From NCBI GenBank assembly GCA_009783205.1, contig WRHO01000009.1, positions 1 through 61,946 on the forward strand: 61,946 bases of DNA. Direction: 5' to 3'. Below the pieces are notes generated by a model. That model saw only the letters and a list, made by a program, of their open reading frames with translations. It was not told the origin of the DNA and ran no database searches. The position numbers were made by a program, and so were the translations under genes. Origin of the DNA: Oscillospiraceae bacterium. Its GTDB lineage: Bacteria > Bacillota > Clostridia > Oscillospirales > Ruminococcaceae. Each line of letters begins with the position of its first letter. Positions within the stretch are counted from its first letter, which is position 1. Below are positions 2,602 through 54,166 of this stretch, piece after piece.

Positions 2602-2675
2602 AGAAGCTGTATTCACAGACATCACCGCTCATCTTTCGGCGAATTTTAAACGATTCGTCTATGAACACAACTTCT
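2602..2675. repeat. Composite palindromic element, shell A, short form (74 bp)
   Basis: Imperfect terminal inverted repeats: left AGAAGCTGTATTCACAGAC, and the right end reads AGAAGTTGTGTTCATAGAC on the other strand. The middle is CACCGCTCATCTTTCGGCGAATTTT then AAACGATTC. The same shell occurs at 6588-6749, where an extra core of about 88 bp sits between GCGAATTTT and TTTAAACGATTC. This copy lies in the probable 5' leader of purE. Confidence 0.85.
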
Positions 2676-2705
2676 TATCCTTCACTTTTATTAGCCACTA
2701 ATACT

Positions 2706-2762
2706 ATTAAACAACATTTTTAAAAAAAAGTCAATGACAAATAACAAATATTATGATATACT
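2706..2762. promoter_or_regulatory. Divergent promoters purE (minus) and glnN (plus)
   Basis: Plus strand: ATGACA (2734-2739), 17 nt, TATACT (2757-2762), driving the type III glutamine synthetase. Minus strand: TTGACT (2729-2734), 17 nt, TTTAAT (2706-2711), for purE. The two -35 boxes share a base at 2734, so the polymerases would compete. The plus promoter is closer to consensus. Confidence 0.6.
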
Positions 2763-2799
2763 TATAAATGCAATTTTTAATTAATAACGGAGACCAACT

Positions 2800-4914
2800 A
2801 TGAAATTAATTCCCGAATTATTCGGAAGTATGGTGTTTAATGACGCGGTTATGCGCGAAAGACTTCCGACAGATATATACGAAGCGTTAAAAAAGACAAT
2901 GCAGGAGGGGTCACATCTAAAACTCGAGGTGGCTAATCACGTTGCCGCCGCAATGAAGGACTGGGCAACGGAAAAGGGCGCGACGCACTATACCCATTGG
3001 TTTCAACCGATGACGGGTATTACCGCCGAAAAACATAACGGCTTTGTCACACCGGGGGAAGACGGGAAGGCAATTATGGCTTTTTCGGGGAAATCGCTCG
3101 TGCGCGGGGAATCCGACGCGTCGAGCTTTCCGTCGGGGGGACTTCGCGCAACATTTGAAGCGAGGGGGTACACCGTATGGGACACCACCTCCTACGCCTT
3201 TATAAAAGACGGAAGTCTTTGTATTCCCACCGCATTTTGCTCCTATTCGGGTGAGGCTCTCGACAAGAAAACGCCGTTACTGCGCTCAATGGAGGCGTTG
3301 GATAAACAAGCGGTGCGGGTTTTACGGCTTTTCGGCGATACAAAAGTGAAAAAGGTTACGGCACAGGTTGGCGCGGAACAGGAGTATTTTTTAATCGACA
3401 AAGATGTATACCTTAAACGCCCCGATTTGGTTTATACGGGCAGAACGCTTTTTGGCGCGAGTCCGCCAAAGGGACAGGAGTTGGGCGAGCATTATTTCGG
3501 TAGTCTTAAACCGAGGGTCGCCGCCTTCATGAACGAGCTCGACGATGAGCTTTGGCGGTTGGGTGTATTTGCAAAAACAAAGCATAACGAAACCGCCCCC
3601 GCGCAGCATGAGCTGGCTACCGTTTATTCCACCGCAAATATCGCGACAGACCATAATCAGATAACTATGGAGGTGATGCGTATTGTTGCGAATCGACACA
3701 ACTTAGCCTGTCTCCTTCACGAAAAGCCGTTCAAAGGGGTGAGCGGGAGCGGAAAACATAATAACTGGTCATTATCCTCGGACGACGGAACAAATTTGCT
3801 TAACCCGGGGAAAACGCCGGGCGAGAACCCAAAATTTTTGCTTTTCCTCACCGCCGTTATAAAAGCGGTAAGCCAATATCGCGACGTTTTAAGGGCTTCG
3901 GCGGCGAGCGCAGATAACGACCACCGTCTCGGCGCAGATGAAGCTCCGCCGGCAATTATGTCAATCTTTTTGGGAGAAGAGCTGACGGCTATTTTAGACT
4001 CTTTTGAAAAGGGGAAAAATTATCGCGACACAGAGCGCGTATCCATGGAGACGGGGGTAACGGCGTTGCCGCATTTTCTGCGCGATAAGACCGACCGCAA
4101 CCGTACTTCGCCGTTTGCGTTCACGGGCAACAAGTTTGAGTTTCGTATGCTCGGCTCCGCGTCGTCGGTTGCAGAGCCTAATATCGCTTTAAACACGGCG
4201 GTTGCCGAGGTTTTAAGAGAGTTTGCAGATGAGCTTGAGGGTTGTGACGACCTTACGCTCGCACTCGATGAGCTTATCAAAAGGACGTATAAGGAGCATA
4301 AGCGGATTGTTTTTAACGGCGACAATTATTCCGAGGAATGGCTTGTTGAATCCAAACAAAGAGGGCTTTCAAATATTAAATCGACGGTTGACGCATTAGA
4401 GGCGTATGTCGGCAAAAATAGCGTCGCGCTTTTCGCAAAACACGGCGTTTTCACCGAAAATGAACTCAAATCCCGATACGAAATATTGATGGAGAGCTAT
4501 TGCAAAACGGTTCGCGTCGAAGCACTCACCATGCTTGACCTTACTCGCGGCGAGATTATCCCCGCCTGTATCCGTTATCAAAACGAATTGGCGGGGCTTC
4601 TCAAGCAAAAGGGCGAGATAAACAAGCTATACAACATTACTTCCGATTGTGAACTCGAAAAATATTTATTAAAGAGTCTTTCCGACCTTTCCGCAAAGCT
4701 ATTGCAGAGGCTGACCGCTTTAGAGATGAGGGTTAACGAATACGCTTCAAATCTCGGTAACGACGGCGTATGCTTAAAGGCATTGTTTTGTCGCGATAAA
4801 ATATATACGGCAATGTCGGAATTACGCGAGGTTGCCGACGAGATTGAGGCTTTAACCGCAAAAAGCTTTCAATCCCTCCCTTCTTACGGGGAAATGTTGT
4901 TCAGTGTTTGCTGA
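2800..4914 (+). CDS. glnN: Glutamine synthetase type III
   Basis: ATP-dependent glutamate-ammonia ligase of the GSIII family, the large form found in Bacteroidetes, cyanobacteria and many Clostridia; 704 residues fits. GSIII landmarks are the N-terminal LFGSMVFND, the metal/glutamate region [32 protein letters not shown], the ATP-side GSGKHNNWS and [13 protein letters not shown]. It is monocistronic, with GGAG about 9 nt before ATG and its own promoter at 2734-2762. It ends convergently with the Na/Pi gene (14-bp overlap of 3' ends). Likely the main ammonium assimilation enzyme here; no PII or GlnR gene is nearby. Confidence 0.95.
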
Positions 4915-6553
4915 TAGCCTGTTTTATTCGTCGCGCATGAAGCGAGGTAACAATATTTTTTGCGTGGTCGGAGATTCTTTCTAAATCCGAGAGCATATTG
5001 ACGAACAGCATACCCGAGGTCGGCGTACAAACACCTTCGTTAAGGCGGAGAATGTGGTTGTCTGTGAATTGTTCAACCTCTTCGTCAACCTCTTCCTCTT
5101 TTGTATCAATTCTGTCGATTTCTTCTTGATTATACACCTGTTCCGAGAAATATTTGATTGAACTTTCTATGACGTTTTCTACGTCGGTGGTAAGCTTTTT
5201 CAATTCGTCGACCGCATCCTGTGAAAACATTTTCTTTTCTTCAATAAAAGGAATACTAAACTCCATAATGTTTTCGGCGTGGTCGCCGATTCGCTCAATA
5301 TCGTTGACTATATGAAAGAATGAGCCGATTAACTTTCGGTCGTTGCTTTCTAATTCGAGGGTGTTAATTCTTATTAAGTATTTGGTTATTTCGTGGTTTA
5401 AAAAGTTGATTAATTCTTCGTTTTTCTTAATTTTCTCAACATTTTTTGTGTCTCGGTTAAGGAACATATCTACCGAAAGCCTATAATTGTCGAGCGCGAG
5501 CTTTGCCATTCGTTCAACCTCGAGACGGGTTTGTTCGACGGCAATATGCGGCATACTGAATATACGCGAGTCGAGGTGGAGCAGTCGCTTTGTCGACATT
5601 TCGTCTTCCTTAACGGGAATTACAAAATTAGCGATTTTCACAAGTACGTTAGCGAACGGGAAAAGTAAAACAACCATAGCGACCTTAAATATTACCGTCG
5701 CGACCGCTATTTGCCGTCCTATATCGTCCCCGATTAAATTTTTAAGGAAATCAACATAGCCGAGCGGAAGAATCGTTATAACGGCGAATACAACTGTACC
5801 TATAGTATTGAAACAGAAATGCACAACCGATACCCGCTTTGCCGCTCTCGACGCGCCGACGGATGCAATTATTGCCGTGACACAGGTTCCTATGCAGGCA
5901 CCGTATATCATGTATATCCCGCTGTCTAATGTCAGAATCCCGCTATTCCCCAAAACGATTAATATGCCGATTGTTGCCGATGAGCTTTGTATAAGCGCAG
6001 TGAACAAAAGCCCCAAGAATATTCCGAGGAACGGGTTTTGTACCTTTTCAAATAAAGCCAACGCCGATTCATTATCCGCGAGAGGTTTTAATGTGTCGCC
6101 CATCATCGTCATACCGAGGAAGAGTATTCCGAGTCCGCCGATAATGTATCCCGCGTGTTTAAACTTCACCTTTTTTGAGCCGATAATGAGAAGTATTCCC
6201 AATATAACGGCAATCGGCGCGATTTCGGATATTTTCAACGAAACAATAAGCCCCGTGACCGTCGTTCCTATGTTCGCACCCATTATAACGCCTACCGCCT
6301 GTGACAATTGCAGTAGACCCGAGTTTACAAACCCGACGACCATAACGGTGGTAGCCGATGAGCTTTGAATCACCGCCGTTATTAATGTACCCGTTAAAAC
6401 ACCTATAAGTCGATTTTTTGTCACCCATTCGAGTATTTTTTTGAATTTTGAGCCGGCGGCGGCTTCGAGTCCCTCGCCCATTAGCTTCATTCCGTAAAGA
6501 AATAACGCTAATCCGCACCCTACCGTGATGATATCCATTACAACCTTTGGCAT
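4901..6553 (-). CDS. Na+/phosphate symporter with PhoU-like tail
   Basis: NptA/PNaS-family inorganic phosphate:sodium cotransporter (550 residues). The membrane half carries the inverted-repeat signature twice: [17 protein letters not shown] at about residues 59-75 and [17 protein letters not shown] at about 185-200. About eight to nine hydrophobic segments lie within residues 1-315. The remaining 230 residues are soluble and helical with two PhoU-like repeats ([13 protein letters not shown] and [13 protein letters not shown]), which bind metal clusters in PhoU. The transcript probably starts near 6757, so the leader carries the whole 162-bp palindromic element at 6588-6749. Confidence 0.93.
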
Positions 6554-6587
6554 AGCTTTTCTCTCCTTTGAAAATTACCTAAATATT

Positions 6588-6749
6588 AGAAGATGTATTC
6601 ATAGACAGCACCGCTCATCTTTCGGCGAATTTTCCGCCATACTGCGTTAAAAATTTCTTAAATATCCAACGGATATTCGTAAAATTTTTGCCTTGTTTGA
6701 CGAAAAATTCGCTCGAAATTTAAACGATTCGTCTAAGAACACAACTTCT
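6588..6749. repeat. Composite palindromic element, shell A, long form (162 bp)
   Basis: Same outer ends as 2602-2675 (AGAAGATGTATTCATAGAC at the left; matching inverted end at the right) with an inserted core of about 88 bp. The core begins TTTTCCGCCATACTGCGTT, contains the hairpin AATATCC-AAC-GGATATT and ends CCTTGTTTGACGAAAAATTCGC. Its reverse complement is recognisable inside the shell B element at 8582-8742. It lies in the 5' untranslated region of the phosphate symporter. Confidence 0.85.
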
Positions 6750-6762
6750 CAATGACATTATC

Positions 6763-6791
6763 ATTGTATAACAAATATTTTACAAAGTCAA
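6763..6791 (-). promoter_or_regulatory. Promoter of the Na/Pi symporter gene
   Basis: Minus-strand TTGACT (6786-6791), 17 nt, TACAAT (6763-6768). It would start transcription near 6757, just upstream of the palindromic element. Confidence 0.55.
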
Positions 6792-6831
6792 TACATTTGT
6801 AAAAATTGTGTAATGTCTATGTAAATTAAAT

Positions 6832-6861
6832 AAAAACAGCAACCCGAAGGTTGCCGTTTTT
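6832..6861. terminator. Terminator after the dehydrogenase gene
   Basis: Hairpin AAAAACaGCAACC-CGAA-GGTTGCcGTTTTT with one mismatch. Followed on the minus strand by Ts, 16 bp past the stop of the gene at 6877. Confidence 0.8.
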
Positions 6862-6876
6862 ATTTATAGATGTTTC

Positions 6877-8082
6877 CTAATTCACTAAATCGGGATTAAA
6901 GCTTTCAATCCACGGTAAGCCCCATTTGTTCAATTCCCGCATAAACGGGTCGGGGTCAAATTCCTCAATGTTGTAAACGCCCGCTTTGTTCCATTCTCCC
7001 GTCATAACCATCATCGCGCCGAGCATTGCGGGTACGCCCGTCGTGTATGAAACGGCTTGTGACCCGACCTCTTTGTAACATTCTCGGTGGTCACAGATGT
7101 TGTAAACGTAATAATTAACGGGCTTTCCGTCTTTAACCCCTTGTATAATACAACCTATATTCGTTTTACCGATTGTCCGCTCTCCCAACGATGCCGGGTC
7201 GGGCAGAACGGCTTTCAGAAATTGTAGCGGGATTATTTCCCGCCCCTCGTACATTATAGGCTCAATTGAGGTCATTCCGACGTTTTCCAAGCATTTTAAA
7301 TGCGTGAGATAGCTCTGTCCGAAGGTCATAAAAAAGCGTATTCGCTTAATTCCCTTAATATTTTGGGCGAGCGACTCTAACTCTTCATGATAGAGAAGGT
7401 ACATATCCCTTTCCCCTACCCCGTCAAAGCGGTATTCGCGCTTAATCTCCATGGGTGACGTCTCAATCCACTTGCCCGATTCCCAATATCTTCCGTTAGC
7501 CGAAACCTCGCGAATGTTTATTTCCGGGTTAAAATTCGTCGCAAAGGGGTAACCGTGGTCACCCCCGTTACAATCGAGAATGTCGATATACTCTATACTG
7601 TCAAAATAATGTTTCATCGCGTAGGCGCAGAATACGCCGGTAACGCCCGGGTCAAACCCGCTCCCTAAAAGCGCGGTAATTCCCGCATTTTTGAATTTAT
7701 CGCGATATGCCCACTGCCATTTATACTCGAATTTTGCCGTTTCGGGCGGTTCATAATTTGCGGTATCCACATAATGCGTTCGAGTCGCGAGACAGGCGTC
7801 CATAATCGTCAAATCCTGATACGGTAGCGCAAGATTTAATACCACATCGGGGTTAAAGGATTCAATCAGCGCAATCATCTCATCAACATTATCAGCATTT
7901 ACACGGGCGGTATGAATAAGCGTATCCGTAGTTCCCTGTAATTTGCTTTTAAGCGCGTCGCATTTAGATTTTGTCCGAGAGGCAATCATTATTTCTTTAA
8001 AAACGCCGCTATTTTGGCAACATTTGTGAACCGCAACGGACGCAACGCCGCCCGCGCCTATAATCAAACACTTCCCCATCAT
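6877..8082 (-). CDS. Saccharopine dehydrogenase family; carboxynorspermidine dehydrogenase-like
   Basis: NAD(P)-dependent oxidoreductase of the LYS1/saccharopine dehydrogenase family, 401 residues. An N-terminal Rossmann fold carries CLIIGAGGVASVAVHKC. The pattern NLALPYQDLTIMDACL, THYVDTANYEPPE and GSGFDPGVTGVFCAY matches the carboxynorspermidine dehydrogenase branch, which reductively condenses aspartate semialdehyde with diamines in polyamine synthesis. The partner decarboxylase NspC is not in the window, so the exact substrate is inferred. AGGAGG lies about 11 nt before the first ATG. It is the last gene of a minus-strand run after the EF-G-like and membrane-protein genes and is followed by a terminator. 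Confidence 0.82.
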   Translation of the reverse strand: MMGKCLIIGAGGVASVAVHKCCQNSGVFKEIMIASRTKSKCDALKSKLQGTTDTLIHTARVNADNVDEMIALIESFNPDVVLNLALPYQDLTIMDACLATRTHYVDTANYEPPETAKFEYKWQWAYRDKFKNAGITALLGSGFDPGVTGVFCAYAMKHYFDSIEYIDILDCNGGDHGYPFATNFNPEINIREVSANGRYWESGKWIETSPMEIKREYRFDGVGERDMYLLYHEELESLAQNIKGIKRIRFFMTFGQSYLTHLKCLENVGMTSIEPIMYEGREIIPLQFLKAVLPDPASLGERTIGKTNIGCIIQGVKDGKPVNYYVYNICDHRECYKEVGSQAVSYTTGVPAMLGAMMVMTGEWNKAGVYNIEEFDPDPFMRELNKWGLPWIESFNPDLVN

Positions 8083-8100
8083 TAAAAACTAATCCTCCTG

Positions 8101-8147
8101 CACTGTCAACTGTCAATTGTCGTCAATTGTCAACTGTCAACTGTCCG
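8101..8147. repeat. Tandem heptamer repeat (CTGTCAA/TTGTCAA)
   Basis: About six degenerate copies of a 7-bp unit, CTGTCAA or TTGTCAA, fill the gap between two minus-strand genes. The same unit is found at 50315-50385 and 50469-50502. The array starts right after the stop codon at 8148. Confidence 0.88.
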
Positions 8148-8579
8148 TCAGCAGCACGACCCTACGGGAACCTCAGCCGCTCCGTCTGCGGAAAAAGGAA
8201 GAACGCTCGAATGACCGTGACCGTCGTCCCATTCGTCCGGCAAATGCAACAAGCCGTTCACGAGCCTCCCCACGACGCTTTTCCCGTCGACGTTAAAAGC
8301 GATTTTTACCTCGCCGCCATCAAAAGCTCTTGTGTAAGAGCCGCGTTTATTTTTATTGTGCGAAAGATTTGCAACAAATGTGCTGTTTTTCTCATACAGC
8401 TTAACCGTTATACCGCTCGCGGTGTAAACGTCCGCCGCTCCCCGCATAATATTTTGCACAATAAAAAACGCCGATATACCCACCACAGCTAATACACAAG
8501 CAAGAATAACAAGAAATCTGTTGCGTTTTGCTCTTTTTATCGCAAGCTCGCGTCGAGCCCGCTTCTCCGATAAAGACAT
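8148..8579 (-). CDS. Small single-pass membrane protein, unknown
   Basis: Unrecognised, 143 residues from MSLSEKRARR. The first about 20 residues are basic (KRARRELAIKRAKRNR), followed by one membrane span (FLVILACVLAVVGISAFFIV, about 21-40), then about 100 residues outside the membrane with no known motif, ending GSCC. The frame is open further upstream to 8639, but that part lies inside a palindromic repeat. AAGGAG, supplied by the end of that repeat, stands 6 nt before the chosen ATG (8577-8579). It lies between the EF-G-like and dehydrogenase genes, probably in one transcript. Confidence 0.65.
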   Translation of the reverse strand: MSLSEKRARRELAIKRAKRNRFLVILACVLAVVGISAFFIVQNIMRGAADVYTASGITVKLYEKNSTFVANLSHNKNKRGSYTRAFDGGEVKIAFNVDGKSVVGRLVNGLLHLPDEWDDGHGHSSVLPFSADGAAEVPVGSCC

Positions 8580-8581
8580 AT

Positions 8582-8742
8582 TATACTCCTTAACTGCTAA
8601 ATTTTGCGGTGATTTCGCAGAATATTTTTTGTCAGACAAGGCGATTTTTTCGCGAATATACGCTTATATTTAAGAAAAAATCAACGCAGTATGACGGAAA
8701 ATATTCAAAAAACGGTGTAATATTTAGTGGTTAAGGAGTATA
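8582..8742. repeat. Composite palindromic element, shell B, long form (161 bp)
   Basis: Ends are TATACTCCTTAACTGCTAAAT at the left and, inverted, TATACTCCTTAACCACTAAAT at the right. The inside, read on the minus strand, is ATTTTCCGTCATACTGCGTT...TTCTTAAATATAAGCG...GCCTTGTCTGACAAAAAA. That is the same core as in the shell A long form, in the opposite orientation. The shell end supplies AAGGAG for the gene starting at 8579. It fills the gap between the EF-G-like stop and that gene. Confidence 0.85.
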
Positions 8743-8749
8743 TATATAT

Positions 8750-10687
8750 CTAACCCTCAATCTCACTGAATTTAGGTGCTTTGGCTATTACCTCTGCCTC
8801 AAGCATTTGCGGAAGCTCCTGATACCTTGCAAATTCTTGTGTAAAGCTCCCTAAGCCTTTTGTCATCTGTAAAATAACGAGCGCGAAATCGGTTGTCTCG
8901 GATTGTGGCATTTCGGCTTCAATCTCGGTCATTTTACTCCCCACCGGATTTGTTCCGAGTACCGCGCCGCGACGCTTATTGACAATACCCATAACGTCGC
9001 CCGTATTCTCGTTCCCCACTAAGATTTTCATTGAAAGAATCGGCTCGAGAAGACACGGGTTCGCCTGTTTCATGCCGGCTTTAAATGCAATTTTTGCCGC
9101 TTGAATAAACGCAACCTCTTTTGAGTCGACGGCGTGCATCTTTCCGTCAACGAGGGTTGCTTTAAGCCGAACAACGGGATATCCCGCAACCGCGCCGTGA
9201 ACAATACTCTCCTTTAACCCTCTTTCAACGGCGGGGAAGAAATTCTTCGATACGGAGCCGCCGACAATTTTCTCTTCAAAAATTAACTCGTCCTCACCGT
9301 GCGGTTCAAAGTCCATAACGACTTTACCGTATTGACCCGCGCCGCCCGATTGTTTCTTATGTGTTCCCTCGACGCCGGTTACCTTTTTCCTAAGCGTTTC
9401 GCGATATGCGATAATCGGCTGACTCAATTCGACGTCTACCCCGAATTTTGTCTTCATCTTACTTATTGTAACATCAAGGTGTTGGTCGCCCAACCCGCCT
9501 ATAACGCGCTGTCTCGTTTCGGAATTGTTGACATAGCTTAAAACTTTATCTTCTTCCAATATTTTGCGGATTGCCCCGCTTATTTTAGCCTCATCGCCCT
9601 TTCCCTTTGCCGCAACCGCTTGAAAGAAACAGGCGACGGGAAATTCAATTTGAGCAAATTTTTGAAGCTTTCCCGCGGCACACAATGCGTCGCCGGTGGT
9701 TGCGTTAAGCTTTGTGATTGTTACAATGTCACCCGCAAATGCCTCGGACACGTCTTCTTGCTTCTTCCCCTTAACGGCAAGGAGTTTTCCGAAGCGTTCG
9801 GGTTCTCCGTTTTTTGAATTAACCGGTTCGGTTTTTTGATTAAGACTTCCGGTAATAATTTTAATAAACGACATCTTTCCCGCAAACGGGTCGGCAACCG
9901 TCTTAAACACAAATGCCGATAACGGCGCAGATTCGTCATACTTGATTTTGCCGCCGTCCTCCGTCGGCTCGCCGTCAACATCGGCGGGGGACGGAAAGCT
10001 GTCTGTGATTAAATTGAGCAACGCCTCTACGCCGTCGCCGGTGGTCGACGTAACCGATATTACGGGGGATACATCGCCCTTTGCTAACGCAACGGTCAGC
10101 CCTTTTGCAAATTCCTCATCAGAAAGCTCCATCGTTTCGAGATACTTTTCCATTAACGCTTCATCGGTTCCGGCAATCAACTCGGATACGGTGTCGCGGT
10201 CGGACAATTCGCAAATCTCTCCGCCGAATTGTTCCTTTAATCCCGCCAAAGCCTTATTAAAATCGGCGTTTTCTTCATCTCCCTTTGTGACGACAAAAAC
10301 TCGACCCTTCCCCTGTTTCACGGCTTCGTTATACGCTTTAATTGTTCCGACTTGAACGCCGTCCTTAGCGGTGAGCGTTATGATTACCGTTTCTGCTGCG
10401 CGTACCCCCTCGGACATTCCGCCGATAAAATCAAACTGTCCCGGGGTGTCGATAATATTAATTTTATTATCCTTCCACTCTGTAAACCCGAGAGAGGTGT
10501 TCAAAGAGATTTTTCTCTTTATTTCATCGGGGTCGTGGTCAAAAACGGTGTTTCCGTCGCTTATTTTCCCCATTCTGTCACTGCCGCCGCTCTTAAACAA
10601 AAGTGCTTCCGCTAATGTGGTTTTCCCGCTTCCGCCGTGTCCGGCTAACGCGATATTGCGTATGTTTTTACATTTGTAAGATTTCAT
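8750..10687 (-). CDS. Elongation factor G-like translational GTPase
   Basis: EF-G paralogue (645 residues; canonical EF-G is about 690-700). Domain order: GTPase domain 1-260, beta-barrel domain II, then EF-G domains III-V in the C-terminal 250 residues (GAGQYGKV region and RRGAVLGTNP). G1 is GHGGSGKT (residues 16-23) as in the EF-G2 branch, G3 is DTPG (80-83), but the G4 motif normally NKxD reads TKGD (134-137). It may act as a second EF-G in translocation or ribosome rescue; the canonical fusA is not here. GGAGG precedes the ATG, and there is a TTGATT-17-TATAAT promoter upstream. Confidence 0.88.
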   Translation of the reverse strand: MKSYKCKNIRNIALAGHGGSGKTTLAEALLFKSGGSDRMGKISDGNTVFDHDPDEIKRKISLNTSLGFTEWKDNKINIIDTPGQFDFIGGMSEGVRAAETVIITLTAKDGVQVGTIKAYNEAVKQGKGRVFVVTKGDEENADFNKALAGLKEQFGGEICELSDRDTVSELIAGTDEALMEKYLETMELSDEEFAKGLTVALAKGDVSPVISVTSTTGDGVEALLNLITDSFPSPADVDGEPTEDGGKIKYDESAPLSAFVFKTVADPFAGKMSFIKIITGSLNQKTEPVNSKNGEPERFGKLLAVKGKKQEDVSEAFAGDIVTITKLNATTGDALCAAGKLQKFAQIEFPVACFFQAVAAKGKGDEAKISGAIRKILEEDKVLSYVNNSETRQRVIGGLGDQHLDVTISKMKTKFGVDVELSQPIIAYRETLRKKVTGVEGTHKKQSGGAGQYGKVVMDFEPHGEDELIFEEKIVGGSVSKNFFPAVERGLKESIVHGAVAGYPVVRLKATLVDGKMHAVDSKEVAFIQAAKIAFKAGMKQANPCLLEPILSMKILVGNENTGDVMGIVNKRRGAVLGTNPVGSKMTEIEAEMPQSETTDFALVILQMTKGLGSFTQEFARYQELPQMLEAEVIAKAPKFSEIEG

Positions 10688-12700: not shown

Positions 12701-12765
12701 ATATACTCCTTAACTGCTAAATTTTGCAGTGATTTTGCAGAATATTTAGTGGTTAAGGAGTATAT
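12701..12765. repeat. Composite palindromic element, shell B, short form (65 bp)
   Basis: ATATACTCCTTAACTGCTAA at the left and GGTTAAGGAGTATAT at the right, enclosing TTTTGCAGTGATTTTGCAGAATATT. Identical in plan to 8582-8742 but with no core. It lies between the HPr and epimerase genes on the minus strand. Confidence 0.88.
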
Positions 12766-29600: not shown

Positions 29601-29665
29601 CAAACAAGAGCGGAGTTTCTCCAAAGGGCGGGCTTTGCCCGACCGCAGAGAAACGCAGCTTGACG
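29601..29665. repeat. Dispersed palindromic repeat D, copy 1
   Basis: CAAACAAGAGCGGAGTTTCT followed by CCAAAGGGCGGGCTTTGCCC and ending GAGAAACGCAGCTTGA. GC-rich central hairpin GGGCGGGCTTTGCCCGACC. The 7-mer GAAGCAA occurs on both flanks (29597-29603 and 29671-29677). Another copy is at 49187-49255. Lies between ssb and rpsR. Confidence 0.75.
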
Positions 29666-29708
29666 ACTATGAAGCAACAGTAAATAAATAATAAGGAGAA
29701 TTTATATA

Positions 29709-44550: not shown

Positions 44551-45984
44551 ATGAAAAGAAAACTTACTGCATTAATTCTAAGTATGACGTTGATTCTGTC
44601 GTCAACATTTGCTTTTTCGGGGTGCGGAATGAATACCCGATTCGCCATGAGCATTAACGGGGAAGAGGTTGCCGCGGGCGTTTACATTATCAGCCAATAC
44701 TATGCGACAGCCGAAGCGCGAAGCAAATTCTCCGAGGAATATCCCGACGAGGACACGAGCGTGGACGGTTGGAAGCCGGACGACTATCTGCTCGAGGGTG
44801 TTAAATACACCGAATGGATTGATAACAGAGCCGTCGAAATGGTTGCGCGTTTTTACGCAATCGAGGAAATGTATAAAGAGCGCGACTTGTCGTTCACCCG
44901 CGACGAATTGGCGGAAATAAATTCGACAATTGAACAAAGGTGGAACACCAATAAACAAATGGAAGAGCTGTACGCTATGCTCGGGGAACAGGCTTTACAG
45001 TTTGACGTGGGCGGAGATACATGGGGCGAGTTTTTTGAAAAAGCGGGGGCGAGTAAGGAATCGTACAAATTTATATTGACCAACGACGAAAAAACCGCCG
45101 CCCTTTTTGAGAGCATTTACGGCGCGGAGGGTACCGACCCCGTACCCGAGGAAGAATGGCGTCCGTATTTCATTGAGAATTATACCCGCGTAAGAGTGGT
45201 TCAAATGAGCTTTGTCGACGAAGAAGACGAGCCTTATGAACAAGAAAGAATTGACGATTTAAGAGAATTTGCGTTAAAACAATTTGAAAAGGTCGAGGAC
45301 GGAGGGAATTTTTATGCCGCGAGACAGGCGTATTATGAATATTTATACGGCATAGATAATAGCGACGATAATGTTTACGATTTGGACTTAGATGATATTG
45401 ATTTTGATGATGATTTAGACGACATCAGCGATGATGACAACAATGACGAGAACGCCGACGAAGGCGACGACAATAACGACGACGAAGACGACGACAATGA
45501 CGAGAACGCCGACGAAGACGATGACAACAACGAAGACGATGACGATGACAACGACGAAGGCGACGACAATGACGAAGACGAAGGCGACGACAATGACGAA
45601 GACGAGAACGACGACAATATATTCGAGGATTTGTTTGACGAGGACGAGCTTTCCGATTATATGGACGAGTTAGACTACGGAATCGAAGAATATTTAAAGG
45701 TTACCGATTATCCGGACAATGAGATTATTATTAAGCTTTCGGAAATGGATTTTGATATTCCCGAGTTTTTTGAAGGGGAGAATGCGTTTTATATTCTTTT
45801 GAAGTTAGATGTTACCGAGCGCGAGGACAAGCTTTTAGAATACCGAGACGAGGTAACCGTCGAATTACGGGCGGAGGAGTTCGACGATATGCTTAATCAA
45901 AAAGCCAAGGAATGGATAACCGACGGAACAGTCGTTTTAAATCAAAAAGCATTAAACCGCTATGACGCGAGAAAGTTTTTATAA
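44551..45984 (+). CDS. Lipoprotein with long Asp-rich repeat, SurA/PrsA-like N-terminus
   Basis: 477 residues. Lipoprotein signal: KRKLTALILSMTLILSSTFAFSGC, lipobox FSGC with Cys26. Residues 30-230 are helical and resemble the SurA/PrsA chaperone N-domain (MSINGEEVAAGVYIISQYYA...). About 85 residues (290-370) are nearly pure Asp, Asn, Glu and Gly built from near-repeats of DDNDEDE-type units, inserted where a parvulin domain would be. The end (VTEREDKLLEYRDEVTVELRAEEFDDML) looks like the rest of that fold. It may bind cations such as Ca2+. Co-transcribed with pheT only by position. Antisense frames here are shadows. Confidence 0.72.
   Translation: MKRKLTALILSMTLILSSTFAFSGCGMNTRFAMSINGEEVAAGVYIISQYYATAEARSKFSEEYPDEDTSVDGWKPDDYLLEGVKYTEWIDNRAVEMVARFYAIEEMYKERDLSFTRDELAEINSTIEQRWNTNKQMEELYAMLGEQALQFDVGGDTWGEFFEKAGASKESYKFILTNDEKTAALFESIYGAEGTDPVPEEEWRPYFIENYTRVRVVQMSFVDEEDEPYEQERIDDLREFALKQFEKVEDGGNFYAARQAYYEYLYGIDNSDDNVYDLDLDDIDFDDDLDDISDDDNNDENADEGDDNNDDEDDDNDENADEDDDNNEDDDDDNDEGDDNDEDEGDDNDEDENDDNIFEDLFDEDELSDYMDELDYGIEEYLKVTDYPDNEIIIKLSEMDFDIPEFFEGENAFYILLKLDVTEREDKLLEYRDEVTVELRAEEFDDMLNQKAKEWITDGTVVLNQKALNRYDARKFL
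45429..45617. repeat. Asp/Asn/Glu-coding low-complexity repeat
   Basis: Degenerate tandem of GACGACAATGACGAAGAC-like units within the lipoprotein gene. Confidence 0.8.
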
Positions 45985-48210: not shown

Positions 48211-48297
48211 TCTATACCGCTTAACTATCAAATTTAACACATAATTGCGGTCTTTTTGCCGCCATACTGCGTTAAAATTTCCTTAAATATAAGCGTA
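48211..48297. repeat. Degenerate composite palindromic element between proB and proA
   Basis: Left part CTATACCGCTTAACTATCAAAT resembles the shell B end, followed at 48260 by GCCGCCATACTGCGTTAAAA and TTCCTTAAATATAAGCG, the shared core. The right half and the closing shell are missing. It was the fifth occurrence found of these modules. Confidence 0.7.
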
Positions 48298-49147: not shown

Positions 49148-49186
49148 ATCTAAACTATATCATAAAAAACAATAACTGTCAAGGTA

Positions 49187-49255
49187 AACAAGAGCGAAGT
49201 TTTTCAAAAGGGCGGGCTTTGCCTGTCCGATGAAAAACGTAGCTTGCCGAGGCGG
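49187..49255. repeat. Dispersed palindromic repeat D, copy 2
   Basis: TAAACAAGAGCGAAGTTTTT, centre AAAGGGCGGGCTTTGCCTG, end GAAAAACGTAGCTTGCCGAG. Same plan as 29601-29665. GGTAA stands on both flanks. Lies between the flavoprotein and proB genes. Confidence 0.75.
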
Positions 49256-49258
49256 TAA

Positions 49259-50389
49259 TCACAACCCATTATATAGCTTTTGTGCCGTCGCCCATGCCCA
49301 TTCGAGATTATAACCGCCACAATCGCCGTCTACATTGACCGCTTCACCGATAATGTATAAGCCCGGGTGGATTTTTGATGACATATCGTCGTTAAGCTCA
49401 TCTGCGGGAATCCCCCCCGACATAACCTGCGCCTTGCTTTGCTCTGCCGTTCCGGTAACGGGAAAACACCAGTCTTTTATAGTTTCGAGCGGCTTTTTAG
49501 CGAGAACTTCTGCTACCCGTTTGTGGAACAACCCCGATAACGGTATTACGCGCAATTGTTCGAGCGTGTACTCCGGTGCGAGGTCGAGAGAAACGGTGAG
49601 CGCGTTTCCGTAGTCGCGAACGAGCCGCGAAAGATTCATTATACATATGCCCGACAATGCGCCGTCGTTAAATTGAACCTCGCCCTCTTCGCTTTTTATA
49701 ATTTTATTGCCGACTACGGCGTTGCACAACGCGCGAATACGCAAGCCTTTTACCGAGCGCGTCAATGCCTTATCGGTTATAACGGGGCATAATGCGGGGT
49801 GGGGCGGGACTATGGTATGCCCTAATTTCTCGAGGATTGAAAAATTAGGAGATGCTTCGCCCGAAACTCCCGCCGCCGAGCCGCAAGCCCATATTACCCT
49901 TTGGGCATAGATATTTTTGTTTATAATAAACCCGCCTTTTGGTGAAGGGGTTATATCGGAACAAGGTGTATCCGTCAAAAACTCCCCCCGGGTACAGGCG
50001 TTACGAAGCGAGTCCGAAACGGAGTTTGCGGTATTTGAATATGGGTACAACCGCCCTTGCGTATCGGCTCTGCAAACAAGTCCGAATTGTTTAAAAAAGC
50101 TTTCCGCCCCCCGCCAATCGGCGAAAACTCGTTTTGCAAACTCTACGTCTCCGTGATAAGCGGACATATTTAAAGGAACGTGACCGAGGTTACACCGACC
50201 GTTGCCCGTAGAAAGAAGCTTTTTGCCGACACGCGGGTTGCGCTCTAACACAACCGAGCTTACCCCTTTTTTTGACAATAGCGCGCAGACGGCTAACCCC
50301 GCCGCCCCCCCGCCGACAATTGACAATTGACAGTTGACAGTTGACAGTTGACGGGCAGTTGACAGTTGACAGTTATTTTCTTTTTTCAT
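49259..50389 (-). CDS. HI0933/BaiN-family flavoprotein
   Basis: NAD(P)/FAD-dependent oxidoreductase of the HI0933 family, 376 residues from MKKENN. FAD motif IVGGGAAGLAVCALLSKKG begins near residue 22; GKKLLSTGNGRCNLGH and GEAVNVDGDCGGYNLEWAWATA are family hallmarks. Homologues begin directly with the GGGAAG motif; here about 20 residues (NCQLSTARQLSTVNCQLS) coded by a heptamer array precede it, so the true start could also be an in-frame TTG in that array. No clear Shine-Dalgarno precedes the ATG. Substrate unknown; some relatives act in bile-acid or menaquinone-like chemistry. Confidence 0.85.
   Translation of the reverse strand: MKKENNCQLSTARQLSTVNCQLSIVGGGAAGLAVCALLSKKGVSSVVLERNPRVGKKLLSTGNGRCNLGHVPLNMSAYHGDVEFAKRVFADWRGAESFFKQFGLVCRADTQGRLYPYSNTANSVSDSLRNACTRGEFLTDTPCSDITPSPKGGFIINKNIYAQRVIWACGSAAGVSGEASPNFSILEKLGHTIVPPHPALCPVITDKALTRSVKGLRIRALCNAVVGNKIIKSEEGEVQFNDGALSGICIMNLSRLVRDYGNALTVSLDLAPEYTLEQLRVIPLSGLFHKRVAEVLAKKPLETIKDWCFPVTGTAEQSKAQVMSGGIPADELNDDMSSKIHPGLYIIGEAVNVDGDCGGYNLEWAWATAQKLYNGL
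50315..50385. repeat. Heptamer array inside the flavoprotein N-terminus
   Basis: About nine copies of TTGACAG/TTGACAA, partly interrupted, coding CQLSTV-like residues of the minus-strand gene. The inverted array at 50469-50502 faces it, 84 bp away. Confidence 0.88.
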
Positions 50390-50437
50390 GTTGTTATTAT
50401 ATATATAAGAGTAGTATTTGTCAAGTAGAATAAACAA

Positions 50438-50464
50438 GAATCCACCCGCTTACCGGGTGGATTC
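50438..50464. terminator. Terminator of spo0A-like gene
   Basis: Stem GAATCCACCCG/CGGGTGGATTC with a short loop, followed on the minus strand by TTGTTTATTC. Confidence 0.88.
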
Positions 50465-50468
50465 TCAT

Positions 50469-50502
50469 TAACTGTCAACTGTCAACTGTCAACTGTCAAT
50501 TG
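50469..50502. repeat. Heptamer array (inverse orientation) after spo0A-like gene
   Basis: TAACTGTCAACTGTCAACTG then TCAACTGTCAATTGT, about four to five units, just downstream of the spo0A-like stop. Confidence 0.88.
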
Positions 50503-50507
50503 TATCG

Positions 50508-51889: not shown

Positions 51890-54166
51890 TTATATACTTA
51901 TATCTAAACCCTGTCGCTTCTCGACAATACGCGGGAATATCTGGGTTAAATCGTGCGGCTCGCGCAAGACGCCCGTTTGAAACTCTCTTACGGAATAGCT
52001 TGTTGACGCTATAATGCGGTTAATTTTATCTTTTAATGACTTCATTTCGCCGTGAAAGCTTTCGGGGTGAAGAACCGCAAGACTTACCTCGGTATCCGTA
52101 GCGTATAAATCTGTCTCAAACCTTCCGACCGCCTCGATTTCAAAGGTAAGGAAAAGGTGATAATTCTTTTCTCGCCCCTCTGCGCCGCCCGCGCTTCCCC
52201 TCTCCTGATTATCCACCCAAAGCTCGCCGAACGCCTTAGCGTCGCCGATTTGCAAGGGAATAATAAAATGAGAAAGGGGGGTGTAAACCCCGGGCGCGTT
52301 AATCAAGCTTTGGAGCAAATTAGAAGCGTTATAACTGTCTAATGTCTTTAAAGCATTATGGTTTATATTCTTTTCTATAAAAGACGTCAATTCTTCGAGT
52401 GAGGATTTCGGCGGCATTTCCGGCTTATTTTCCTCGAGAGCCTCCGCATTTTGTAGTAGCGGCTGTTGCTCTTGTGACCCTCGCGATTGTGCCTGTTGCG
52501 TTTGTTGAGACTGTTGAGCTTGCTCGGGTTGTTGTGTTTGCTGTGATTGTTGAGTTTGTTGAGCTTGCTCGGGTTGCTGCGTTTGTTGCGTTTGTTGAGT
52601 TTGTTGAGATTGTTCGGGTTGTTGCGCCTGTTGAGTGCCGGACTCGGGCGGAAGCTCCCCTTTTTCAACCATGCCCGAAACCGTTTCGGACAACATTTCA
52701 AACAAAACCTCTCTCTCGGGAACATCGGGTAATTGTTTCAATATATCGTTAAGATAATCAACGAGCATTGTGATACTGTCTATATTTACCAAATCGGCTT
52801 GCAGAGCCATGGCAATATTTACATCAACCGTTCCTTCTATGAGGTTAGCGAGAATTGCTTCGATTGCTTCGATTCCCGTAAAACGCCCTAAAAGGAACCC
52901 GCGAAGCCCGTCCGCCAAACCGTCTCGCGTCATTCCCGGGGGTGGAAACGCCCCCCCTTCTTCAATTGTTTTTCCGTAAAGCTCGGGAAACGTGCCTTTG
53001 TTTAAAATAGGGGCTTGATTTATCTTTGAATCTGTGTTATTATTACCTTGAGGCGATGATTTTTGAACCGTCTGCGAGTTTGAGTTTATTTTCGCGCCTT
53101 TTTCGTTGTCCGTTGTGTTTGCTTGGTCATTTTGAACTAACGCTTGTTCGGCTTGAGCGGGTTTGCGCCCCCCTGTCGATTCACCCGCCTCTTTTCCGGA
53201 CGTTCCGTATAAAACCGCGTCGAGAAATTCTTCAAAGGCGACCATGAACGCTCCCTTTTGCGAATGGGGAACATGGGTCAGCATTTGCGAAAACGCCTCT
53301 TTAAGCATATAATCGTTTGTATTATATCTCGAAAGATTGTGTATAATAAGAGGAATAAGAATTTGTGTTTTTTCGTTGTTCAAAAGGCTGTCCGATACAT
53401 TATAGAGGAGCTTCACCGTTTCGCTTTTTAAAAGTTCAAAGTTTTCCCGCGCTTGAATCCCGCCCCATGCTTCGGCTAACGCACCCAATTTTTCCGAAAG
53501 GAGCGGCGACGGCGAGAAATACGTCGACAAAAAGCGCAGATTAGCGGAAAGCGCGTTGAGAATTTCGTCGCGGTTAAAGGTAAAGTTGACAGCTTTAAGG
53601 AAATTCGCGATTGCCGTCAATTTTTCGTCGTTTACGTTAAGCTGAGGATACTGTGGTGAATATTGTCCCTGCGGCTGTGCTTGAGGTTGAGGCGGATATT
53701 GTCCGTTTGCCTCTCTCCCCCCCGCAAGATTACGCAGTAAATCGAAAAGACGATTCCCCGAAAACATTGTCGTCTGTTCCTCTTGATTGAGCATTTCCTT
53801 AACGAGGTCGTCGACCGCCAAATAAATCGACCGCGAAAGCCCTTCGAGTTCACCGTGAAGCTCGGTGTAGCCGTTCGCTTGTGCGGTGGCTAAAAGCTCC
53901 GAGCTTATAAGCTGTTTCAAAGTCTCGACCGCCATTGTAGGGTCTTTCGGGGTCTTGACCATTAATTGGGGAAGGTCGGTTCTGTTCGGAATTAACTGTT
54001 GTTGTTGTTTCCCCGCCTGTCTTTCGGTGGCATCCGAAACCGCTTGCGGCTTAGTAAGTTGAATTATTTCAAATTGTTCGCCGCCGGGACGGTTTTGATT
54101 GTTACTCAAAGAAGAGTGATAGCCTTTTCCTTGAAAAGGATTGGTAATTTGTGGTATAACAGGCAA
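51890..54166 (-). CDS. FliK/YlqG-like protein with Gln-rich repeat
   Basis: 758 residues, TTG start behind GGGGG. Residues 1-500 are helical without recognised domain. A repeat of QQ/TQQ/PEQAQQ fills about residues 510-560 (52470-52640). The C-terminal about 150 residues (HFIIPLQIGDAKAFGELWV, FLTFEIEAVGRFETDLYATDTEVSLAVL) resemble the hook-length control FliK C-domain. It probably senses or sets length or substrate order in flagellar export with the FlhB-like partner. Divergent from cheA. Confidence 0.75.
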   Translation of the reverse strand: MPVIPQITNPFQGKGYHSSLSNNQNRPGGEQFEIIQLTKPQAVSDATERQAGKQQQQLIPNRTDLPQLMVKTPKDPTMAVETLKQLISSELLATAQANGYTELHGELEGLSRSIYLAVDDLVKEMLNQEEQTTMFSGNRLFDLLRNLAGGREANGQYPPQPQAQPQGQYSPQYPQLNVNDEKLTAIANFLKAVNFTFNRDEILNALSANLRFLSTYFSPSPLLSEKLGALAEAWGGIQARENFELLKSETVKLLYNVSDSLLNNEKTQILIPLIIHNLSRYNTNDYMLKEAFSQMLTHVPHSQKGAFMVAFEEFLDAVLYGTSGKEAGESTGGRKPAQAEQALVQNDQANTTDNEKGAKINSNSQTVQKSSPQGNNNTDSKINQAPILNKGTFPELYGKTIEEGGAFPPPGMTRDGLADGLRGFLLGRFTGIEAIEAILANLIEGTVDVNIAMALQADLVNIDSITMLVDYLNDILKQLPDVPEREVLFEMLSETVSGMVEKGELPPESGTQQAQQPEQSQQTQQTQQTQQPEQAQQTQQSQQTQQPEQAQQSQQTQQAQSRGSQEQQPLLQNAEALEENKPEMPPKSSLEELTSFIEKNINHNALKTLDSYNASNLLQSLINAPGVYTPLSHFIIPLQIGDAKAFGELWVDNQERGSAGGAEGREKNYHLFLTFEIEAVGRFETDLYATDTEVSLAVLHPESFHGEMKSLKDKINRIIASTSYSVREFQTGVLREPHDLTQIFPRIVEKRQGLDISI
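52487..52640. repeat. Gln-coding tandem repeat
   Basis: Runs of TTGTTGTG/TTGTTGAG (minus strand CAACAAAC-type), coding the Gln/Thr/Glu repeats of the FliK-like protein. Antisense frames are shadows. Confidence 0.8.

Follow-up and report, generated by a model that had tools for sequence, protein, structure and literature searches.

What places one and the same hairpin at the centre of palindromic repeats whose ends are unrelated? The question is raised by contig WRHO01000009.1 of an Oscillospiraceae bacterium (assembly GCA_009783205.1), analysed here over its full 61,946 nucleotides (the window). The window carries two long palindromic elements which have a common inner core and different outer parts, called shells A and B. 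What the sequences show directly is the modules themselves, the close agreement of shells with the ends of two transposase families, one nested insertion together with its target duplication, two hybrids and several deletion derivatives. It is likely that the elements are miniature inverted-repeat transposable elements (MITEs) of two modules, a transposon-type shell and a conserved core that acts at the DNA level, and that shells are exchanged by recombination through the core.

The long shell-A element lies at positions 6588–6749 on the plus strand (162 bp; flanking 3-mers TTA and TCA) and contains the core in plus orientation at 6626–6714. The long shell-B element lies at 8582–8742 on the minus strand (161 bp; TATA ends), with its core on the minus strand at 8618–8705. 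An earlier note on this DNA had described two long and two short elements with these shells, the long forms being near 160 bp in spite of their different shells and having one core at their centres in opposite orientations; all four were found at the places given, and the lengths, the central position and the opposite orientations were confirmed. The core was modelled by covariance (R1, built on 41 sequences and 88 positions), and this model scores 90.3 bits in shell A and 93.9 bits in shell B, with both elements among its training rows. With a two-block matrix, whose training rows included the shell-A element, the score of either long element was reached by 0 of 1000 shuffles. Used as BLAST queries against their own genome (1.91 Mb, 49 contigs), the long shell-A and shell-B elements gave 46 and 50 matches respectively, pieces and reverse readings counted. 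The many BLAST matches, the R1 scores and the shuffles argue that the window elements are not chance arrangements. R1 itself gave 46 matches in this genome; since one duplicates another in reverse reading, the number of cores is about 45.

The hairpin core

The core is a single conserved imperfect hairpin (CGYCATACTKCGTTR...GCCTYGTCTGACG). In its alignment 83.6% of the cells are paired, and two-sided changes number 242, compared to 84 in shuffles and at most 120 once the partners are slid. The hairpin is interrupted by a 3x3 internal loop that reads TGC/CTT in 20 of the 41 sequences, TTC/CTC in 17, TTC/CTT in three and AGC/CTT in one. These letters co-vary (TGC with CTT, TTC with CTC) and form no Watson-Crick pair; the correlation is descriptive, as the 41 rows are related and were partly picked by pattern. 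Stems and loops have strongly diverged across Clostridia, Proteobacteria and Bacteroidetes and the internal-loop letters are kept, in rows that were partly chosen by pattern or model. The mismatches persist while the arms otherwise change in step. The inner motif is present in 27 of 29 gammaproteobacterial stretches, which had been selected by R1 and are therefore not independent.

RNA helices tolerate wobble. The scarcity of G-T pairs in the core, 13 of 994 standard pairs with one invariant T-G pair excluded, is thus unlike an RNA helix. The neighbourhood of 110 elements was examined with simple open reading frames (ORFs) as genes; an ORF of at least 110 amino acids spanned the element in three cases. 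Neighbouring ORFs were co-directional at 57 elements (core in sense at 29, in antisense at 28), convergent at 22, divergent at 12 and unassigned at 19. Since G-T pairs are rare and a strand bias is lacking, the core probably acts as DNA.

The alternative that the core works as RNA, in a transcript hairpin that is processed by RNase III or insulates genes in the manner of the Correia elements of Neisseria, is supported by the fact that the hairpin folds and by reports that Correia transcripts are cut by RNase III (PMC10969869, PMC2649163; published repeats are cited here and below from accessible parts of the papers). We give it a low probability. The missing strand preference speaks against a cis-acting RNA; the alternative is also opposed by the rarity of G-T pairs and by the Rfam searches, in which no family reached its gathering score at the elements. 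These searches covered the window, its region 6500–8850, 19 gammaproteobacterial stretches and one enterobacterial repetitive intergenic consensus (ERIC) copy; above gathering score they returned only a tRNA in the window and a signal recognition particle RNA beside one element. At the window elements a known RNA family was discarded, as only hits in E-value mode, below gathering score, were obtained.

The core is most likely a cis-acting DNA site, in which the mismatches of the hairpin or cruciform are obligatory and which would aid transposition or persistence of the element. This is suggested by the mismatches and, in most shells, the distance to the ends, both of which are kept while the shell sequence is free, as well as by the missing strand bias and the scarce wobble pairs. 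A core without any function, conserved only through recent horizontal spread and recombination among copies, would agree with its uneven occurrence, genomes of a single genus holding anywhere from 0 to at least 73 copies, and with the evidence that copies do recombine. It appears decidedly improbable, in view of the internal-loop letters that are retained between Clostridia, Proteobacteria and Bacteroidetes whose stems and loops have diverged, and of mismatches that stay though the arms change in step.

Two unusual arrangements of the core were observed. A Ruminococcus metagenome-assembled genome (MAG), SUG119, holds a tandem array of core hairpins free of any shell (locus L126, 6983–7441; 106-bp period, about 4.3 copies). 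Five gammaproteobacterial loci (L176, L226, L234, L237 and L246) include, by eye, two opposed cores around a small CCCGAAGGG-like palindrome.

Shells, hybrids and short forms

How many shells surround this core? In the window's own genome, 43 BLAST rows were collected, of which five are reverse readings of shell-B cores; the 38 core-oriented rows display, by eye, at least 10 shells around one centre. A third shell, C (TATACCGCTTAAC), occurs in the window itself as a truncated element at 48213–48297 (plus strand) that consists of the left arm and the left core half only. In the larger collection, 210 core hits yielded 135 unique elements with recognisable tips, and 92 of these have TA- or AG-type starts. 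With register shifts allowed the 92 elements fall into 20 shell clusters; in an earlier count of 28 tip strings, and likewise in a 24-element set, some entries were one shell in shifted register. The proposal of the earlier note that the core is exchangeable between unrelated shells is well supported by these counts, and further by ends matching two transposase families and by two hybrids (see below). Far from never occurring apart from one shell, the core is found in many shells and, in the tandem array, in none.

To compare clusters, one representative of each was used; 17 of the 20 were usable, picked at 150–170 bp. Identity between clusters is 0.29–0.30 in the outer shell (shuffled 0.26) versus 0.85–0.86 in the two core blocks. 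Information is near zero in most outer shell columns and high in most core columns of the 24-element set, which gives the same picture, column by column, as the 17-cluster set. The 17 representatives, within the length range at which they were picked, measure 161.3 bp (standard deviation (SD) 2.4), and their left tip-to-core distance is 49.65 bp (SD 1.08). This distance is not universal: Correia elements have a shorter one, as do certain gammaproteobacterial copies such as L225 and L228.

Two elements record how shells may be exchanged. L116 shares a MAG with both of its parents: its positions 1–13 are an AGAGCC tip, positions 14–62 match the TAGACC-type element L086 at all 49 positions, against 28 for the AGAGCC type, and over positions 63–175 the match is to the AGAGCC-type element L064, at all 113 positions against 82 for the TAGACC type. 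L148 has the same layout; it agrees with L095 of the same MAG at 123 of 124 positions and then continues into a different right arm, for which a second parent was not found. In a third locus, L161, one element lies inside the core of another and is accompanied by a TAA duplication. From their sequences, L116 and L148 are best explained by a MITE landing in the arm of another and a subsequent recombination of the two cores, and they look like the exchange caught in the act. In the order of events that we propose, a core-bearing MITE would insert at a TA in the arm of a second one, the two directly repeated cores would then recombine to give a hybrid with renewed ends, and correction of one arm within the hairpin, by template switching, could restore the symmetry of the shell. 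Change over time looks more like the replacement of tips around a constant core than like a core hopping between fixed shells.

It is unlikely that all elements descend from a single ancestral MITE whose shells drifted by point mutation, tracking diverging transposases, with no exchange. Such an origin could explain why 82 of the 92 elements are 157–166 bp long, why the TA-type shells B, C, D and I look alike by eye (CTTAAC...ACAC), and why shell identity slightly exceeds that of shuffled sequences. It is difficult to reconcile with two transposase families that have differing target duplications, with two hybrids, one of which switches cleanly between two identified parents, and with shell information that is near zero in most outer columns where core columns are mostly high. 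Drift from one ancestor, which the earlier note had named as a possible outcome, was consequently not obtained overall, and may still apply within the TA-type shells.

The short forms were also regarded in the earlier note as units made of shell only, and here the result was different. The short shell-A element (2602–2675, plus strand; flanking 3-mers TTA and TTA) is the long form less an 87-bp internal stretch that includes the core, and matches it at 73 of 74 positions. The short shell-B element (about 12702–12764, minus strand, oriented in the same way as long B) is the long form less 98 bp between AATATTT repeats, and matches it at 61 of 63 positions. All seven short copies examined fit a long form with one internal deletion of 85–100 bp in which the core was lost and both tips were kept; 60 to 73 positions match, the poorest fit being 66 of 74. 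The deletion junctions are of several kinds, some with short direct repeats (AATATTT, CGCTC) and some without. The short forms are deletion derivatives and not building blocks. One junction is the same in two B short copies; this pair may have spread as a short form, or the deletion may have arisen repeatedly. Thus, the core common to unrelated shells remains from the earlier interpretation, and the short forms as independent building blocks do not.

Transposase ends and host genomes

If shells are exchanged, which enzymes would move them? The shell would represent the terminal inverted repeat (TIR) of a DDE transposon, of IS630 type with TA tips or of IS5 type, the latter leading to a 3-bp TWA duplication. 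In core-bearing relatives, ends that closely match MITE shells were found on insertion sequences (ISs) of both families. L281 (848 bp) encodes an IS5-family transposase (NF033580, 171 bits, cut-off 110), and its ends, AGAACCTGTACCAATA, have two mismatches in 16 positions to the MITE shell of L098. L193 encodes an IS630-family transposase (NF033545, 241 bits, cut-off 100) and its left end has one mismatch in 27 to the shell of L070; L195 (NF033545, 191 bits) has ends resembling the shell of L143. In addition, IS630 fragments in genome G017 have their first 18 bases, TATAGTCGATTAACTTAA, in common with MITE L087, and L201, a DDE_3 element of genome G243, has ends like those of L188, a MITE in the same genome. 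Apart from L193 and L195, shell tips spaced 0.6–2.6 kb from each other in the loci mostly belonged to two MITEs.

R1 detected no core in eight IS loci (L281, L193, L195, L201, L202, L206, L208 and L210; best score 13.4 bits, E 0.05). The idea that the core is a part of the IS was rejected on these eight loci; L193 and L195 contain only single-arm strings with two mismatches. The core would be a separate imperfect-hairpin module, absent from the autonomous IS copies inspected, and the MITEs may be mobilised in trans by whichever matching IS630 or IS5 transposase is present. By class only, shell A fits IS5-type ends and shell B IS630-type ends.

The flanks of the elements were examined for target duplications. 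Equal 3-mers border 25 of the 60 AG-start elements, compared to a mean of 11.1 and a maximum of 22 in 10,000 permutations, and in the AGAA/AGAG subset equal 3-mers of the form TWA were counted by hand in 22 of 27. For TATA ends, a TA duplication is indistinguishable from the tip itself.

Within the genus and order, R1 detected cores in 33 of the 60 genomes searched, the window's own among them, and copy number ranges from 0 to at least 73 even within the genus. IS630 is present in four of the 13 core-rich genomes (at least 10 cores) versus one of the 47 core-poor ones (p 0.006 in a Fisher test that does not correct for relatedness). Y1_Tnp is present in one of 13 versus 14 of 47 (p 0.15, not significant). 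The latter count bears on the possibility that the core is a hairpin of the repetitive extragenic palindromic (REP) type, moved by a Y1/HUH tyrosine transposase (REP-associated tyrosine transposase, RAYT), the shells being mere landing places. REP dimers within long TATAGGA-ended palindromes have been reported (PMC3733652), and the shell-less tandem array exists. However, Y1 transposases show no sign of a link with core number, so mobilisation by them was rejected, and the core has neither the unpaired tag nor the stem and loop sizes of the CGTC family described in the same source. We attach a very small chance to this origin.

Outside the genus and order, 53 of 185 genomes in the class of Nitrosospira were positive, Nitrosospira Nl5 included (R1, E ≤ 1e-4; the E-values are rough). 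Named genomes were searched with a core pattern of 24 fixed or two-fold positions and a gap of 28–48, which gave at least 110 stretches; the pattern fixes core letters, so that conservation in the rows derived from it is partly due to selection. Among the matches listed, 97 have Clostridia-type names, mostly Oscillospiraceae, and 13 others are from Bacteroidetes (four), Pseudomonas (four), Nitrosospira (three), Pseudoduganella (one) and another betaproteobacterium (one). In five named genomes R1 counted five cores in Lutispora, one in each of two Pseudomonas, three in Pseudoduganella and 25 in Nitrosospira Nl5. Carriage by phages was considered and dropped: the exact core pattern had 0 matches in the viral_contigs set, where a Correia pattern matched 10 stretches. 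For the shell-A element, one flanking gene has a match in 52 of the 59 congeneric genomes searched, and in none of them did this match extend into the element; the gene on the other side was unmatched beside this flank, so that presence or absence is not exactly scorable.

Several findings weigh against MITEs with exchangeable shells, or limit how far that explanation reaches. The length is not universal, 10 of the 92 elements being outside 157–166 bp, and where it is near-constant it could be inherited from one ancestor. Core-less short forms exist, and with one junction in two B copies they suggest that an element may be able to move without its core. Among AG-start elements, 35 of 60 lack equal 3-mers, and in many of the latter the tips are of TA type with a shifted register. 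The link to the IS5 family depends on one intact IS copy, L281, whose own flanking 3-mers are unequal (TAA and TTA). No IS630 match was found in nine of the 13 core-rich genomes. In the core-bearing relatives and the window's own genome, no autonomous IS with exactly the tips of shell A or B was found. For all its 45 cores, this genome yielded nothing in the IS630 search at E ≤ 1e-6, and neither of its two PF01609 transposases is bordered by fitting ends; so any mobiliser of its own would have been lost or be absent from the assembled contigs. Finally, many of the sequences are from MAGs.

The window contains other repeats. A dispersed repeat of CAACTGT/CAATTGT units in both orientations is found at 8092–8145 and 50316–50504, and a similar string adjoins element L259. 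A palindrome-like 65-bp repeat has two copies of 85% identity, at 29602–29666 and 49186–49250. Within ORF 44551–45984, positions 45386–45642 form an acidic repeat of Asp, Glu and Asn codon runs with 16 overlapping register copies, and the minus-strand ORF 51890–54166 includes, at 52485–52645, a repeat of 9-bp period (TGTTGAGTT-like).

Relation to known repeats

Is the core part of an already described repeat? The closest candidates are the Correia elements of Neisseria (Correia repeat enclosed elements, CREE, or Neisseria miniature insertion sequences, NEMIS), which are also MITEs with TATA ends and a length of about 155 bp. Their inner motif (TACGGCGTTG...CGCCTTGTC) is in mirrored register, with the blocks opposite each other in the palindrome and 17–18 bp from either tip. 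Eight of 10 Correia loci were tested (L218 and L221 were left out, L221 being cut by a contig end); a two-block matrix trained without Correia elements scored the eight at 19.3–20.5, a level reached by four of 8000 shuffles. The eight are near-identical and count as one observation, and R1 recovers none of them. Correia elements differ in having arms to the core that are about 29 bp shorter and a longer centre. Their TIR, TATAGTGGATTAAC, is unlike the window shells, and a shell in related MAGs, TATAGTCGATTAAC, is similar and not identical to it. The Correia core is described as oriented, with CCGGTACGG and TCAGGACAA ends, in PMC2649163, where the mobiliser is stated as undetermined; the inner motif is shared according to the matrix and missed by R1. 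An integration host factor site and promoters were also reported in these elements (PMC10969869, PMC2229807). Kinship of the Correia elements with the core family is probable and falls short of proof.

A wider view is possible, if rather doubtful: the core would be a pan-bacterial hyper-parasitic module that rides on various transposase ends, a putative conserved factor would read it, as a hairpin or cruciform with mismatches, at a fixed spacing from the transposon ends, and Correia elements would be one branch.

ERIC elements of Enterobacterales are palindromic MITEs with TA ends as well, and GCGTTG- and CGCCTT-like short strings are visible by eye in some copies. They were excluded as members, since all eight copies tested (two of which are one locus in two strains) are within the shuffled range of the two-block score; the comparison covers the core motif alone and not the 127-bp conserved sequence. 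In the Escherichia coli ERIC copy L192, positions 79–198 gave a hit to Rfam RF02818 (Vibrio AS5 RNA) of 44.5 bits, below the gathering score of 96. The RUP element of Streptococcus pneumoniae is a MITE with TA targets, proposed to be mobilised by IS630-Spn1 on account of its matching ends (PMC2229807), and resembles the elements studied here by description only, as a MITE with IS630-type ends and TA targets.

REP sequences, bacterial interspersed mosaic elements (BIMEs) and GTAG- or CGTC-tagged repeats are short hairpins that occur in several phyla, some within larger palindromes (PMC3733652). They are 20–40 bp long with an unpaired 4-nt tag, whereas the core exceeds this length and is paired where the tag would be. 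The CGTC-tagged REP has an unpaired CGTC tag, an 8–9 bp stem opening with complementary A/T, a 4–5 nt loop and a CCA-type tail (PMC3733652); by inspection this type was ruled out for the core, in which CGTC is paired and followed by AGAC. The REP dimers found inside longer palindromes are the nearest precedent for a nested layout (PMC3733652).

It is usual to name bacterial MITEs separately for each genome and to regard them as decayed copies of one IS each (PMC10969869, PMC4853749, and general knowledge). In the open literature, covered by titles and the openings of abstracts and with subscription journals mostly outside it, no report of a core shared across MITE shells was found. With the core as a computable criterion, many palindromic repeats that now stand anonymous would be regrouped, and the hybrids suggest how the ends of MITEs are swapped. 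If the core is functional, a common factor may act on small repeats, possibly those of Correia included, and a larger claim would become possible if a common recognising factor were found.

The BOX elements of pneumococcus are modular too, built as boxA-boxB-boxC. The likeness, drawn in the earlier note, is one of analogy only; the modules here are transposon-type ends and a core. MITEs as such are a known kind of element; here one core is common to shells of at least two transposase families, in hosts of several phyla.

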